A DNA stretch of 64,000 bases, from positions 1 to 64,000 of the forward strand of contig NZ_JADDIV010000001.1 of the NCBI RefSeq assembly GCF_015070875.1, read 5' to 3'. Source of the stretch: Ramlibacter pallidus. GTDB lineage: Bacteria; Pseudomonadota; Gammaproteobacteria; Burkholderiales; Burkholderiaceae_C. This document shows, one piece after another, positions 24,651 to 40,472 of this stretch. The position numbers and the translations under genes are program-made. Position 1 is the stretch's first letter, and each line of letters starts with the position of its first letter. Below the pieces are notes generated by a model, which did not search any database, was not told the origin of the DNA, and was given only the letters and a program-made list of their open reading frames with translations.

Positions 24651-24751
24651 GCGGCACATTGTGTGCACCCACTCATTCCCGGCGATAAGGAGACTGCGTG
24701 TCCGGGCGTGGGAGAGTGCCTACCGTCGCGCCGTACACTGGCGCCTTCCCG

Positions 24752-25507
24752 ATGCCAGCCGCCATCCCCACCACCCCATTCGGCCCCCTGCTCACGCGGG
24801 CCCACGCCCGGCGCCTGCGCGACATCTACCGGTCCGCCGGCTGGCCCAGCCAGGACCCGCTGGAGATCGACCTGGTCGCCGCCGGCCTGCTGGAGCGGGT
24901 GCGGTCGCCCCTCGGGCACGAGACCCTGCGCGTCACCGACCCGGGCGTGCAGTGGCTCGCCACCGTGCTCGCACGCAACCGCGCGGCGCTCTCCGCCCAC
25001 GAGGCGCTGGTGCAGCGGGTGGCGCAGGAGATGGCGCGCGGCGGGCGGCTGGCGTGGACCGGCCTGAGCCTGCGCGCACAGGTGCCCACGGGCGAATCCG
25101 CGAAGCCGCTGCGCTGGTGCATCGCGCGTCCGGACGTCTTCTCGATCCGCCACACCTCGGTGGAAAGCTACGTCGAGCCGATCGTCCACGAGATCAAGGT
25201 GCGGCGCGCCGACCTGCTGGCCGACCTGCGGCAGGAAGCCAAGCGCGCCGCCTACCGCGATCTCGGCGAGTGCTGGTACGTGCTGGGGACCGATGCACGG
25301 GGACGCGAGATCGCCGCACCGGACGAGGTGCCGGGCGAATGCGGGGTGCTGGTGGCGCAGAAGGAAGGCCGCCTCTCGGTGGCCCGGCCCGCGGTGCGTC
25401 CGGCGCGCGCCGGGCTGCCGTTCGGCGTCTGGATGGCTCTCGCCAAGGCGACCCCGGTGCCGAGCGCGGACGACGACGCGCAAGGCCTGCTGGACGCCGC
25501 GAACTAG
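24752..25507 (+). CDS. Hypothetical protein with a PD-(D/E)XK nuclease-like core
   Basis: A 251-residue protein of no named family that I can assign. Residues about 10-65 look like a winged helix (AGLLERVRSPLGHETLRVTDPGV). The centre has P127-D128 in ARPDVFSIR and E147-x-K149 in HEIKVRRADLLADLRQEAKR, then GECWYVLGTD. Spacing and context match PD-(D/E)XK folds such as MmcB-type DNA repair proteins. ATG 24752 is preferred over an upstream 18-residue extension because PFGPLLTRAHARRL follows directly. Nuclease function is inference. Confidence 0.7.
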   Translation: MPAAIPTTPFGPLLTRAHARRLRDIYRSAGWPSQDPLEIDLVAAGLLERVRSPLGHETLRVTDPGVQWLATVLARNRAALSAHEALVQRVAQEMARGGRLAWTGLSLRAQVPTGESAKPLRWCIARPDVFSIRHTSVESYVEPIVHEIKVRRADLLADLRQEAKRAAYRDLGECWYVLGTDARGREIAAPDEVPGECGVLVAQKEGRLSVARPAVRPARAGLPFGVWMALAKATPVPSADDDAQGLLDAAN

Positions 25508-25532: not shown

Positions 25533-25676
25533 TCATTGCCGGGGATGCTCCGGCTCGCCCTGCTCCGGATCCTTCACGCGACCCTTTTCGGGGTCGGTCG
25601 CCGGCGCGGCCGGTTCCGGATTCGCCGGCTTGGGGTCCGCCGGCGCCGGGCTGGGTGCCGGTGCGGTCCCGCTCAT
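25533..25676 (-). CDS. Small proline-rich protein, 47 aa
   Basis: A 47-residue protein of low complexity, opening MSGTAPAPSPAPADPKPANP and ending DPEQGEPEHPRQ, almost certainly disordered. Support for it being a gene: its ATG overlaps the stop of the preceding 58-residue gene as ATGA, and it is the last member of a tight run of four small minus-strand genes. No homologue is recognised. It is acidic to neutral and soluble. Confidence 0.55.
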   Translation of the reverse strand: MSGTAPAPSPAPADPKPANPEPAAPATDPEKGRVKDPEQGEPEHPRQ

Positions 25677-25849
25677 TCGCGCTCGGGGCTGCGGGCCGGC
25701 CGCTCTTCGCGCGCTGGGACGCGTTCGTTGTTGCGGGCGTTGCCGCGGGCTTCGGTGGGGATGTCGTCCTCCGGCACGAAGGTCGGCTCCTCCCGTTCGA
25801 GGCCGGGCGTGGGCGGCGTGATGCCGCGCGGGGTGCGGATGAAGGGCAT
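25673..25849 (-). CDS. Small Glu/Arg/Pro-rich protein, 58 aa
   Basis: A 58-residue protein beginning MPFIRTPRGITPPTPGLERE, then EEPTFVPEDDIPTEARGNAR and a charged tail ending ARSPERE. An AGGA ribosome site sits 6-7 bases before the ATG. The stop overlaps the next gene's start (ATGA). The MPFIRTPRG...PPTPGLEREEP opening is the least repetitive part and the best handle for a homology search. Confidence 0.6.
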   Translation of the reverse strand: MPFIRTPRGITPPTPGLEREEPTFVPEDDIPTEARGNARNNERVPAREERPARSPERE

Positions 25850-25875
25850 GGGGATTCCTGGGATATCGGTCCGGT

Positions 25876-26046
25876 TCAGATCGCCGGGCGTGGCACGCCG
25901 GGATCCTCGGGTTCCGCCTGCGGCAAGGCCTGGCCGAACTCCGGCTCGATCGGCAACTGCGTCGGGTTGGGCGCGGGCGTGTCCGTGCCGGGCGGGAAAG
26001 GTTCGGGTTCGACCGGCTGGTGACCCGGCGTGTGGGCGGTGTTCAT
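25876..26046 (-). CDS. Small Pro/Glu-rich protein, 56 aa
   Basis: A 56-residue protein starting MNTAHTPGHQPVEPEPFPPG and ending DPGVPRPAI. Pro plus Glu make up over a third of the residues. The ATG follows the previous stop by one base (TGA-G-ATG), which is typical of re-initiation and argues for translation. No signal peptide, membrane helix or known domain. 26 bp separate it from the next gene. Confidence 0.55.
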   Translation of the reverse strand: MNTAHTPGHQPVEPEPFPPGTDTPAPNPTQLPIEPEFGQALPQAEPEDPGVPRPAI

Positions 26047-26047
26047 C

Positions 26048-26212
26048 TCAGAAGGGGCTCTTGGCGCCCAGGGAGGGTTCGACCGGCCGCGCCCGCGCAG
26101 GCTGTGGCTGCACCGGCGCCGTGGCCTGGGCGGGCGGGGAGAAGCCGTCGTCCAGGCTGTCGAGCAGCGGCTCGGATGGACGCAGGCTGGGATCGATGTC
26201 GTCTGGGTGCAT
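26048..26212 (-). CDS. Small disordered protein, 54 aa, first of the cluster
   Basis: A 54-residue protein starting MHPDDIDPSLRPSEPLLDSL and ending EPSLGAKSPF. A GGAGG ribosome site is placed six bases before the ATG. The N-terminal half (DDIDPSLRPSEPLLDSLDDG) has an amphipathic, acidic character and could fold on binding a partner. It leads the run of four short genes and follows the 124-residue gene after 94 bp. Confidence 0.6.
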   Translation of the reverse strand: MHPDDIDPSLRPSEPLLDSLDDGFSPPAQATAPVQPQPARARPVEPSLGAKSPF

Positions 26213-26273
26213 GGGCGGCCTCCGTAGGCTGGATCGTGCCGCGCCGCACGGCCGCCGGGACCCGGCGGGCAGA

Positions 26274-26295
26274 CCCTGCGGCTGTAGTCGCAGGG
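26274..26295. other. Hairpin between the 124-aa gene and the small-gene cluster
   Basis: CCCTGCG (26274-26280) and CGCAGGG (26289-26295) form a perfect 7-bp stem with an 8-base loop, 11 bp downstream of the 124-aa gene stop on the minus strand. No U-tract follows, so it may be an attenuator or RNA-processing site rather than a terminator. Confidence 0.45.
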
Positions 26296-26306
26296 CTCGC
26301 GCAGGG

Positions 26307-26681
26307 TCAGTGCTTTTCCTCGGCCTGGCGTTGCAGCTCGCGCCGGGCGACGCTGCTCGGCTCGTGCGTGAAGGGCAGCCGCGGCAGGCCGATCAGCGCC
26401 TGCAGGCGCGCATGGGCGCGGTCCATGTCGGCGCCGATCATGGCCAGGCCGACCTCGTTGGAGGGCTCGTTCTGCGCCACGTCCAGGTAGGCATTGCGCA
26501 GGCGCTGGTAGTCCGCGTCGGCGCGGGCCACCTCTTCCTGCAGCGCGAGCACCTTGGCGTACTCGGCCCGGCTGTAGCGCGCGCTCGTACCCGCCGTCGC
26601 CGGACCGCGGCTGGGCGCTGCGGACTTCTCCATTGCGTTCGCCCGTGCGTGCGGGCCGTTCCTGGTGCTCATGCGGGCCAT
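26307..26681 (-). CDS. Hypothetical helical protein, up to 124 aa
   Basis: I do not recognise a family. Residues about 35-105 form a likely helical or coiled-coil region (SRAEYAKVLALQEEVARADA, then DYQRLRNAYLDVAQNEP and DMDRAHARLQALIG). The N-terminus is Ser/Ala-rich and probably disordered. The start is unclear: ATG 26681, ATG 26672 (MSTRNG) and ATG 26633 (MEKSAAPS) are possible and none has a strong ribosome site. It may head the small-gene cluster downstream. Confidence 0.6.
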   Translation of the reverse strand: MARMSTRNGPHARANAMEKSAAPSRGPATAGTSARYSRAEYAKVLALQEEVARADADYQRLRNAYLDVAQNEPSNEVGLAMIGADMDRAHARLQALIGLPRLPFTHEPSSVARRELQRQAEEKH

Positions 26682-26781
26682 GCTAGGAATTAGCGCACGG
26701 TAAAGCTGTAGGACGGGACGCCACGCGCCCGCAGTCCACGGGACGGCACGTGCGGTTTTCCCGCACTGCCGCCAATGGCGA

Positions 26782-39869: not shown

Positions 39870-40472
39870 TCAAGCGTAACGGGCCATGCAGCCCCGCAGC
39901 TGGTCCAGCCCGCGCCGGATCCAGGTCTTGACCGTGCCCAGCGGCAGCTTGAGCTGCTCGGCGAGCTCGCTGTGGCTCAGGTCGCGCAGGTAGGCCAGGC
40001 TCACCACCTCGCGCTGCCGCGCCTCCAGCCGGCTGAGGCAGTCGTACAGGGCCGTGGCCTGCTGGCTGGCCTGCGTCGTGTCCACCGGGTCGGGGCTGTC
40101 GCCGGCCACCGTCTCGCTGACCATCTCGTCCAGCTCGTGGTGCGCGTCGGCCCGTTCGCTGGTGCGGCGGCGCAGGAAATCCAGCGCGCGGCTGCGCACG
40201 ATCATCCCCATCCAGGCCAGCGGCGGGCTGAGCGTCGCGCGGTAGTCGCCCGCCGAACGCCACACGTGCACGAAGGCTTCCTGCAGCACGTCCTCCGCCC
40301 ACTCCCGGTTGCCCACGACCTTGACGGCCAGCCCGTAGAGGCGGCTGGAGGTCTGGTCGTAGAGGGCTCGCAGCGCCTGTTCGCTCTGGCGCTGGCGGCC
40401 CGGGTCGGCGATGCGCGCCGCCACGCCGTCGATCAGCGCGATCAGCACGTCATCGGATAAGTTCGATGTCAT
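39870..40472 (-). CDS. ECF sigma factor (SigK-like)
   Basis: A 200-residue ECF sigma-70 factor. Region 2 reads LYGLAVKVVGNREWAEDVLQEAFVHVW, and region 4 reads REVVSLAYLRDLSHSELAEQLKLPLGTVKTWIRRG. It pairs with the downstream RskA-type anti-sigma. The regulon is unknown. A 7-bp inverted repeat sits immediately upstream and may be part of an autoregulated promoter. Confidence 0.94.
   Translation of the reverse strand: MTSNLSDDVLIALIDGVAARIADPGRQRQSEQALRALYDQTSSRLYGLAVKVVGNREWAEDVLQEAFVHVWRSAGDYRATLSPPLAWMGMIVRSRALDFLRRRTSERADAHHELDEMVSETVAGDSPDPVDTTQASQQATALYDCLSRLEARQREVVSLAYLRDLSHSELAEQLKLPLGTVKTWIRRGLDQLRGCMARYA

Follow-up and report, generated by a model that had tools for sequence, protein, structure and literature searches.

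A conserved cluster of small proline-rich protein genes in Ramlibacter and a candidate stress-type promoter that precedes it

Results

Five genes lie in a compact minus-strand cluster

The window considered here is a stretch of 64,000 nucleotides at the start of Ramlibacter pallidus contig NZ_JADDIV010000001.1; GC content is 72–75% in windows over the gene cluster examined here, and many overlapping antisense frames are present. A first-pass annotation had described four consecutive minus-strand frames of 54, 56, 58 and 47 codons within it, separated by a gap of 1 nt (A-B), a gap of 26 nt (B-C) and an ATGA overlap (C-D), with GGAGG before position 26212 and AGGA before position 25849 as ribosome sites. 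All of these elements were located in the window. The four frames are called A to D here, and the helical gene upstream of them is called H. The features of the locus are as follows.

26707..26714, minus strand: upstream promoter box GTCCTACA, at about -41 to -34 as counted from the -10 box
26680..26687, minus strand: -10-like box CCTAGCAT, inside the two-box match 26680-26714
26307..26672, minus strand: gene H, 121 aa, disordered N-terminus plus helical hairpin
26048..26212, minus strand: gene A, 54 aa (54 codons), own ribosome site, motif DIDPSL...SLDDGFSPP...KSPF
25876..26046, minus strand: gene B, 56 aa, 1 nt past A, without its own ribosome site, motif PVEPEP...NPTQLPIEPEFG..LP.AEPEDPG
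25673..25849, minus strand: gene C, 58 aa, own ribosome site, motif GITPPTPGLEREEP.F..EDDIP
25533..25676, minus strand: gene D, 47 aa, start overlapping the stop of C (ATGA), motif PKPANPEP...DPEKGRV..PEQG..EHP.Q
24698..25507, plus strand: convergent neighbour downstream and outside the operon, 269-aa frame, adjacency conserved

The helical gene reported upstream of A is indeed present, but the start listed for it did not stand: the ATG at position 26681, giving a protein of 124 aa, lies inside the conserved -10 box CCTAGCATG. Conservation places the start at position 26672, 7 nt past the -10 box, which gives a protein of 121 aa that begins MSTRNGPHAR; the closest relatives begin at the matching ATG with MSTRNGPHAR-like residues. 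An AlphaFold2 model of H (mean pLDDT 72.1, pTM 0.48) contains helices at residues 35–68, 73–94 and 107–119. The first two form a hairpin with pLDDT values mostly near 90, the N-terminus is disordered, and the C-terminal helix has lower confidence. Comparison of this fold with the PDB using Foldseek gave nothing at E ≤ 0.001, the top-ranking entries being mixed helical proteins. Paralogues of H without A–D nearby were seen at loci L022–L024 and L325, and those at L022–L024 carry CCTAGCATGG at the start.

Substitution patterns identify A–D as coding genes

Comparison of synonymous and nonsynonymous changes among relatives bears out the proposed frames, in which synonymous changes are favoured. 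The in-frame median pN/pS is 0.37 for H (38 sequences), 0.70 for A (22), 0.47 for B (33), 0.71 for C (32) and 0.48 for D (34); these sets leave out loci L006, L011 and L033 for A, where A is fused with B or B was picked instead, and L042 for B, where the match was picked in the frame of D. The two other sense frames give values of 1.07–1.97 and two of the antisense frames give 1.08–2.01. The remaining antisense frame gives 0.56–0.83 and in no gene falls below the proposed frame, the values for A and C being only moderately low, with this closest antisense frame at 0.83 and 0.76, respectively. Third codon positions are the most variable in all five genes. At the protein level, recurrent cores were recognized in A (DPSL, LDDGFSPP and KSPF), B (HPVEPEP, LPVEPEFG and AEPEDPG), C (TPPTPGLEREEP and EDDIP) and D (PKPANPEP, DPEKGR and SEHPKQ).

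The high GC content of this DNA makes open frames common and antisense overlaps numerous, so that A–D might in principle be chance frames, conserved as non-coding RNA or regulatory DNA. This explanation is highly improbable in view of the third-position variability and the lowest pN/pS being in frame in all five genes, together with the genus-wide recurrence of the frames, ribosome sites, start/stop spacing and gene order; the frame-specific substitution pattern largely excludes chance frames. The original contention that the chain goes beyond chance is thus upheld by the recurrence of gene order in relatives and by purifying selection in these frames, and comparative sequence analysis confirms A–D as genuine coding genes.

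The families are nearly confined to one genus and keep their order

Families A–D and H scarcely extend beyond the Ramlibacter/Caenimonas genus and are not a feature of Comamonadaceae at large. Matches to H were obtained in 21 of 25 genomes of the genus and in none of 16 genomes from other families of the order. A single-sequence query for C matched 30 of 59 genus genomes, and a profile of B matched 51 of 60 (40 of 45 among good-quality genomes). The profile search detected no B in the other nine of the 60, and the operon may therefore be dispensable. In a sample of 299 genomes from the family, B was found in five and H in eight, four of them within the genus in each case; the H matches outside the genus comprise one strong match (G207, E 3.6e-33) and three weak ones. 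All 41 named loci with a relative of H belong to Ramlibacter, Caenimonas, or metagenome-assembled genomes labelled Ramlibacter, Comamonadaceae or Burkholderiales.

Gene order and a single coding strand are kept in 35 of the 36 loci that hold at least two of the genes, the sole exception (L042) being a B match picked in the frame of D. When one locus per genome was chosen by hand (40 loci, with 15 duplicates out of 55 excluded; L025, for example, repeats L020), all five genes were present in 23, H-B-C-D in six and H-B-D in three, and drawn gene boundaries gave five separate genes in 19 of the 40. Of the 41 named loci, 35 gave a match to B and 35 a tblastn match to the convergent downstream neighbour; tblastn matches to D in L098 and L101 lie upstream of H and are spurious. 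The gene upstream of H in the window, which reads as D-cysteine-desulfhydrase-like, is within reach in just four of the 41 named loci, which indicates that the operon does not depend on its company.

The gene spacing suggests two translationally coupled pairs

Among the relatives, 23 of 30 loci have a 4-nt overlap of C with D. A and B lie -1 to 3 nt apart at 10 of 21 loci and 8 to 29 nt apart at the remaining ones. A motif resembling a ribosome site stands upstream of A in 21 of 22 cases and of C in 29 of 32, counts that are inflated because the start codons of A–D were chosen partly by ribosome-site score; the same start rule was used for all genes, and the motif is still infrequent before B (11 of 32) and D (9 of 34), as it is before H (9 of 38). 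Rows L006, L011 and L033 for A, and L042 and L006 for B, are left out of these layout counts. Translational coupling is recognized by a stop–start overlap, or a very short gap, before a gene without its own ribosome site, and this arrangement is found here. The layout suggests two coupled pairs, A:B and C:D. Moreover, A and B are merged into a single open frame in L011 (77 aa) and L006 (89 aa), which is a hint that they may cooperate. The suggestion that H belongs to the same unit as A–D gains support from the conserved order, the recurrent gaps and the promoter upstream of H that is described below.

A–D are disordered by composition and match no known family

None of the five window proteins matched a Pfam or NCBIfam family at E ≤ 1, so that no known family of those collections was recognized among them. 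The prediction that A–D are disordered is borne out by the charge-hydropathy plot, which places every sequence used for B, C and D on the disordered side, together with 86% of those for A and 29% of those for H. Reading the sequences of A–D by eye revealed no apparent hydrophobic segment or signal peptide.

Small size, hydrophilic character and disorder by composition make A–D resemble the hydrophilins and LEA-like desiccation proteins, and a role in the drying tolerance of cyst formers is plausible. A–D differ, however, in being rich in proline and acidic residues rather than glycine, and in having no Pfam match. Hydrophilins are defined by a glycine content above 6% and a hydrophilicity index above 1. 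In the window A (3.7%, 0.64), B (7.1%, 0.88) and C (5.2%, 1.38) fall outside these limits and D (6.4%, 1.42) falls within them. Across the genus, A and B mostly fall outside (1 of 22 and 5 of 32 within) and about half of C and D fall within (16 of 32 and 15 of 34), with L006, L011 and L033 left out for A and L042 and L006 for B. On glycine content and hydrophilicity the A–D set is not a set of hydrophilins.

A two-box promoter precedes H

Many relatives have GTCCTACA-N19-CCTANNNT upstream of H at fixed spacing. The exact two-box match lies within 330 nt upstream of H in 23 of the 41 named loci and is absent from that interval in the other 18. GTCCTACA occurs exactly once in the window, before H, and 100 shuffles gave no match to GTCCTACA-N18-20-CCTA. 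The R. pallidus genome contains five sites with N19 and one with N20, against one for the control, and a scan of the genus found 110 sites in 33 of 40 genomes, against eight for the reversed pattern. When one mismatch was allowed, the genome of R. pallidus gave eight further sites, against four for the control in all; their targets by reading include a GlgC-like gene and a glycine-zipper gene, and some of these sites are probably due to chance. Among the papers listed by a literature search on Ramlibacter, RpoS and leaderless topics, chiefly in the open literature, none deals with this operon or promoter, and the proposed two-box promoter of H appears to be new here.

The -10 box of the window, CTAGCAT, fits the RpoS -10 element CTANNNT; the 112 genus sites were preselected by pattern and say nothing on this element. 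Ku genes were sought in ten genomes of the genus, of which seven lacked a strict site and three were unscanned, and five of the ten gave a match. In two of the unscanned genomes (G058 and G066) the box stands before [GA]CTAACGT, and in one genome without a strict site (G005) it stands before GTTATGGT, with TTATGGT as the -10; in the stretches inspected at the Ku genes of G073 and G050 the box was not seen. These variants suggest that TANNNT may be the more general form of the -10.

Beyond the genus, sites of the promoter pattern are outnumbered by those of its reversed control, both in a first scan (18 against 32 sites, 118 genomes) and in a second (68 against 169 sites, 148 genomes). Of the 68 sites, 51 nevertheless have the 35-bp length, three lengths being allowed (binomial p = 2.5e-12 against one third), and targets by reading include Ku (L285), a penicillin-binding protein (L277) and glycine-zipper lipoproteins (L268, L271–L273). 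Only this spacing bias and some of the targets suggest that the promoter exists outside the genus.

The promoter recurs before seven gene families

Besides H, sites in the R. pallidus genome precede two penicillin-binding-protein genes and genes for Ku, a 62-aa proline-rich protein and a DUF3606 protein. Four of these own-genome sites, together with 80 from other genus genomes, make up a set of 84 non-H N19 sites, and five or more genus-scan sites (in G055, G007 and G017) lie outside this set. With duplicates removed, 60 of the 84 fall in seven recurrent downstream families: DUF3606 proteins (14), the 62-aa family (13), penicillin-binding proteins (11), Ku (8), and the PKARKF (7), YRHLFPPH (4) and CPQCGGSGK (3) families. 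The other 24 precede genes outside these families. The names Ku, DUF3606 and penicillin-binding protein derive from Pfam searches with one member each, and the penicillin-binding proteins under this promoter are bifunctional, transglycosylase/transpeptidase genes.

The 62-aa proline-rich family, which ends in GEHKYVPRSPYRTGNY, was seen behind the same promoter at L106, L164, L175, L182, L212 and other loci; the one member checked had no Pfam or NCBIfam match. At L165 (G018) and L193 (G049) the promoter precedes a family of small exported-looking proteins, near the operon and on the opposite strand. The target at L199 (G015) has a possible resemblance in sequence to RsbR-type stress sensors, and its first 75 aa gave no NCBIfam match.

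Start codon positions suggest leaderless mRNAs

Of the 112 genus sites, 43 have an ATG that starts 6 or 7 nt past the -10 box, whereas offsets between 10 and 59 nt average 2.2 each; about half of the 43 are orthologues of H and hence non-independent. The other close-ATG sites include genes for penicillin-binding proteins, the 62-aa family, DUF3606 and Ku. At further sites, the majority of Ku genes among them, the ATG stands near 24 nt past the -10 box, with a normal leader. The close spacing at so many sites suggests leaderless mRNAs, and H is probably among the genes translated in this way. In a report on Cupriavidus metallidurans, leaderless transcripts are given as 4.67% of primary starts (PMC7563307).

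Discussion

The reader of the promoter

The genome contains 14 sigma-like genes, 13 of them over the family cut-off and several of ECF type by reading; one of the 14 is RpoS, above its curated cut-off. A box at about -41 to -34 is in the position of a class II activator site. Our preferred reading is that RpoS and a putative activator bound to GTCCTACA act together at this promoter. Its main rival, which we regard as rather unlikely, is a dedicated alternative sigma factor of ECF type of which the operon would be a target. The nearly invariant spacing of two boxes, which outside the genus extends to the 51 of 68 sites of 35 bp, would suit such a factor, as would the several ECF-type genes in the genome. 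On the other hand, N19 exceeds the usual ECF spacing, the -10 is TANNNT-like, and the full GTCCTACA box was found at none of the 14 sigma loci (1.5 kb on each side), so that no autoregulated candidate emerges; at L247 there is one GTCCTAC 7-mer, which falls short of the full box.

Known systems offer partial likenesses to this promoter and its targets. Ku and DUF3606 targets fit RpoS-type general stress regulons, as do the CTANNNT -10 and the presence of RpoS, but a fixed GTCCTACA box and frequent putative leaderless starts are not known features of RpoS promoters. In the EcfG/PhyR general stress response of Alphaproteobacteria, a single class of promoter likewise serves many small genes of stress type, whereas the promoter sequence found here has no known relation to the EcfG consensus. 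BvgA-type class II activation, in which an activator site overlaps and replaces the -35 hexamer, is an analogy only for the putative activator site. About 14 kb away from the operon, the window also carries an ECF-type sigma gene at 40161–40364 (minus strand; 216-aa frame with a Sigma70 region 2 match).

A possible role in stress, dormancy or cyst formation

Taken as a whole, H-A-B-C-D is fairly probably one operon of stress or dormancy type, made up of disordered acidic microproteins and a helical-hairpin partner. This reading draws on the company of Ku, DUF3606 and cell-wall synthases at the same promoter, and on the desiccation-resistant cysts of the genus, which have been described for Ramlibacter tataouinensis (PMC6848086). 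In the proposed scheme RNA polymerase, probably with RpoS and recognizing a -10 of the form TANNNT after C, would read the H promoter, assisted by the putative activator on GTCCTACA near -41 to -34. Transcription would begin at the H start codon or within a base or two of it, and H would be made from the resulting leaderless mRNA. Initiation at A and C would use the ribosome site of each gene, and B and D would be reached through translational coupling, so that the supply of A would be linked to that of B, and that of C to D. The four acidic proline-rich products would stay disordered and act in the cytoplasm during stationary phase, drying or cyst formation, as microproteins that protect or that bind partners; the hairpin protein H would probably be the structured partner. 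Both the molecular action of A–D and their link with H are hypotheses.

It could instead be proposed that A–D and H serve the cell envelope, or wall remodelling in the change between rod and cyst, rather than protecting the cytoplasm. The recurrence of transglycosylase/transpeptidase genes among the targets (11 of the 84 non-H sites) fits this proposal, which we consider doubtful: A–D, read by eye, have no apparent hydrophobic segment or signal peptide, and neither Ku nor DUF3606, both of them targets, is an envelope protein.

Extending the stress-type reading from the operon to its promoter, we consider it slightly more probable than the contrary that Ramlibacter and some relatives possess an undescribed stress or cyst regulon. 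Its promoters would carry GTCCTACA at a fixed distance from a TANNNT -10, and its mRNAs would often start at the start codon, yielding new families of disordered proline-rich microproteins (A–D and the 62-aa GEHKYVPRSPYRTGNY family) beside Ku and cell-wall synthases. The classical set discussed in the R. tataouinensis genome paper consists of enzymes, trehalose and exopolysaccharide (PMC3164672). A microprotein layer in desiccation and cyst biology would, if true, be new. Easily overlooked genes would thereby become a testable system of five orphan families present in most genomes of a genus. The promoter would predict a whole stress-type regulon, leaderless translation is simply testable, and the shared box offers a route to the putative regulator.

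The pairing of B-like and H-like genes may be older than the genus. At L060, in a genome of another genus (G272), a B-like small frame TELPVEPDLGPVPPLAHPEEPG lies at about 1495–1660 on the minus strand and is followed by a second small frame at about 1285–1485, which resembles the hairpin core of H by eye.
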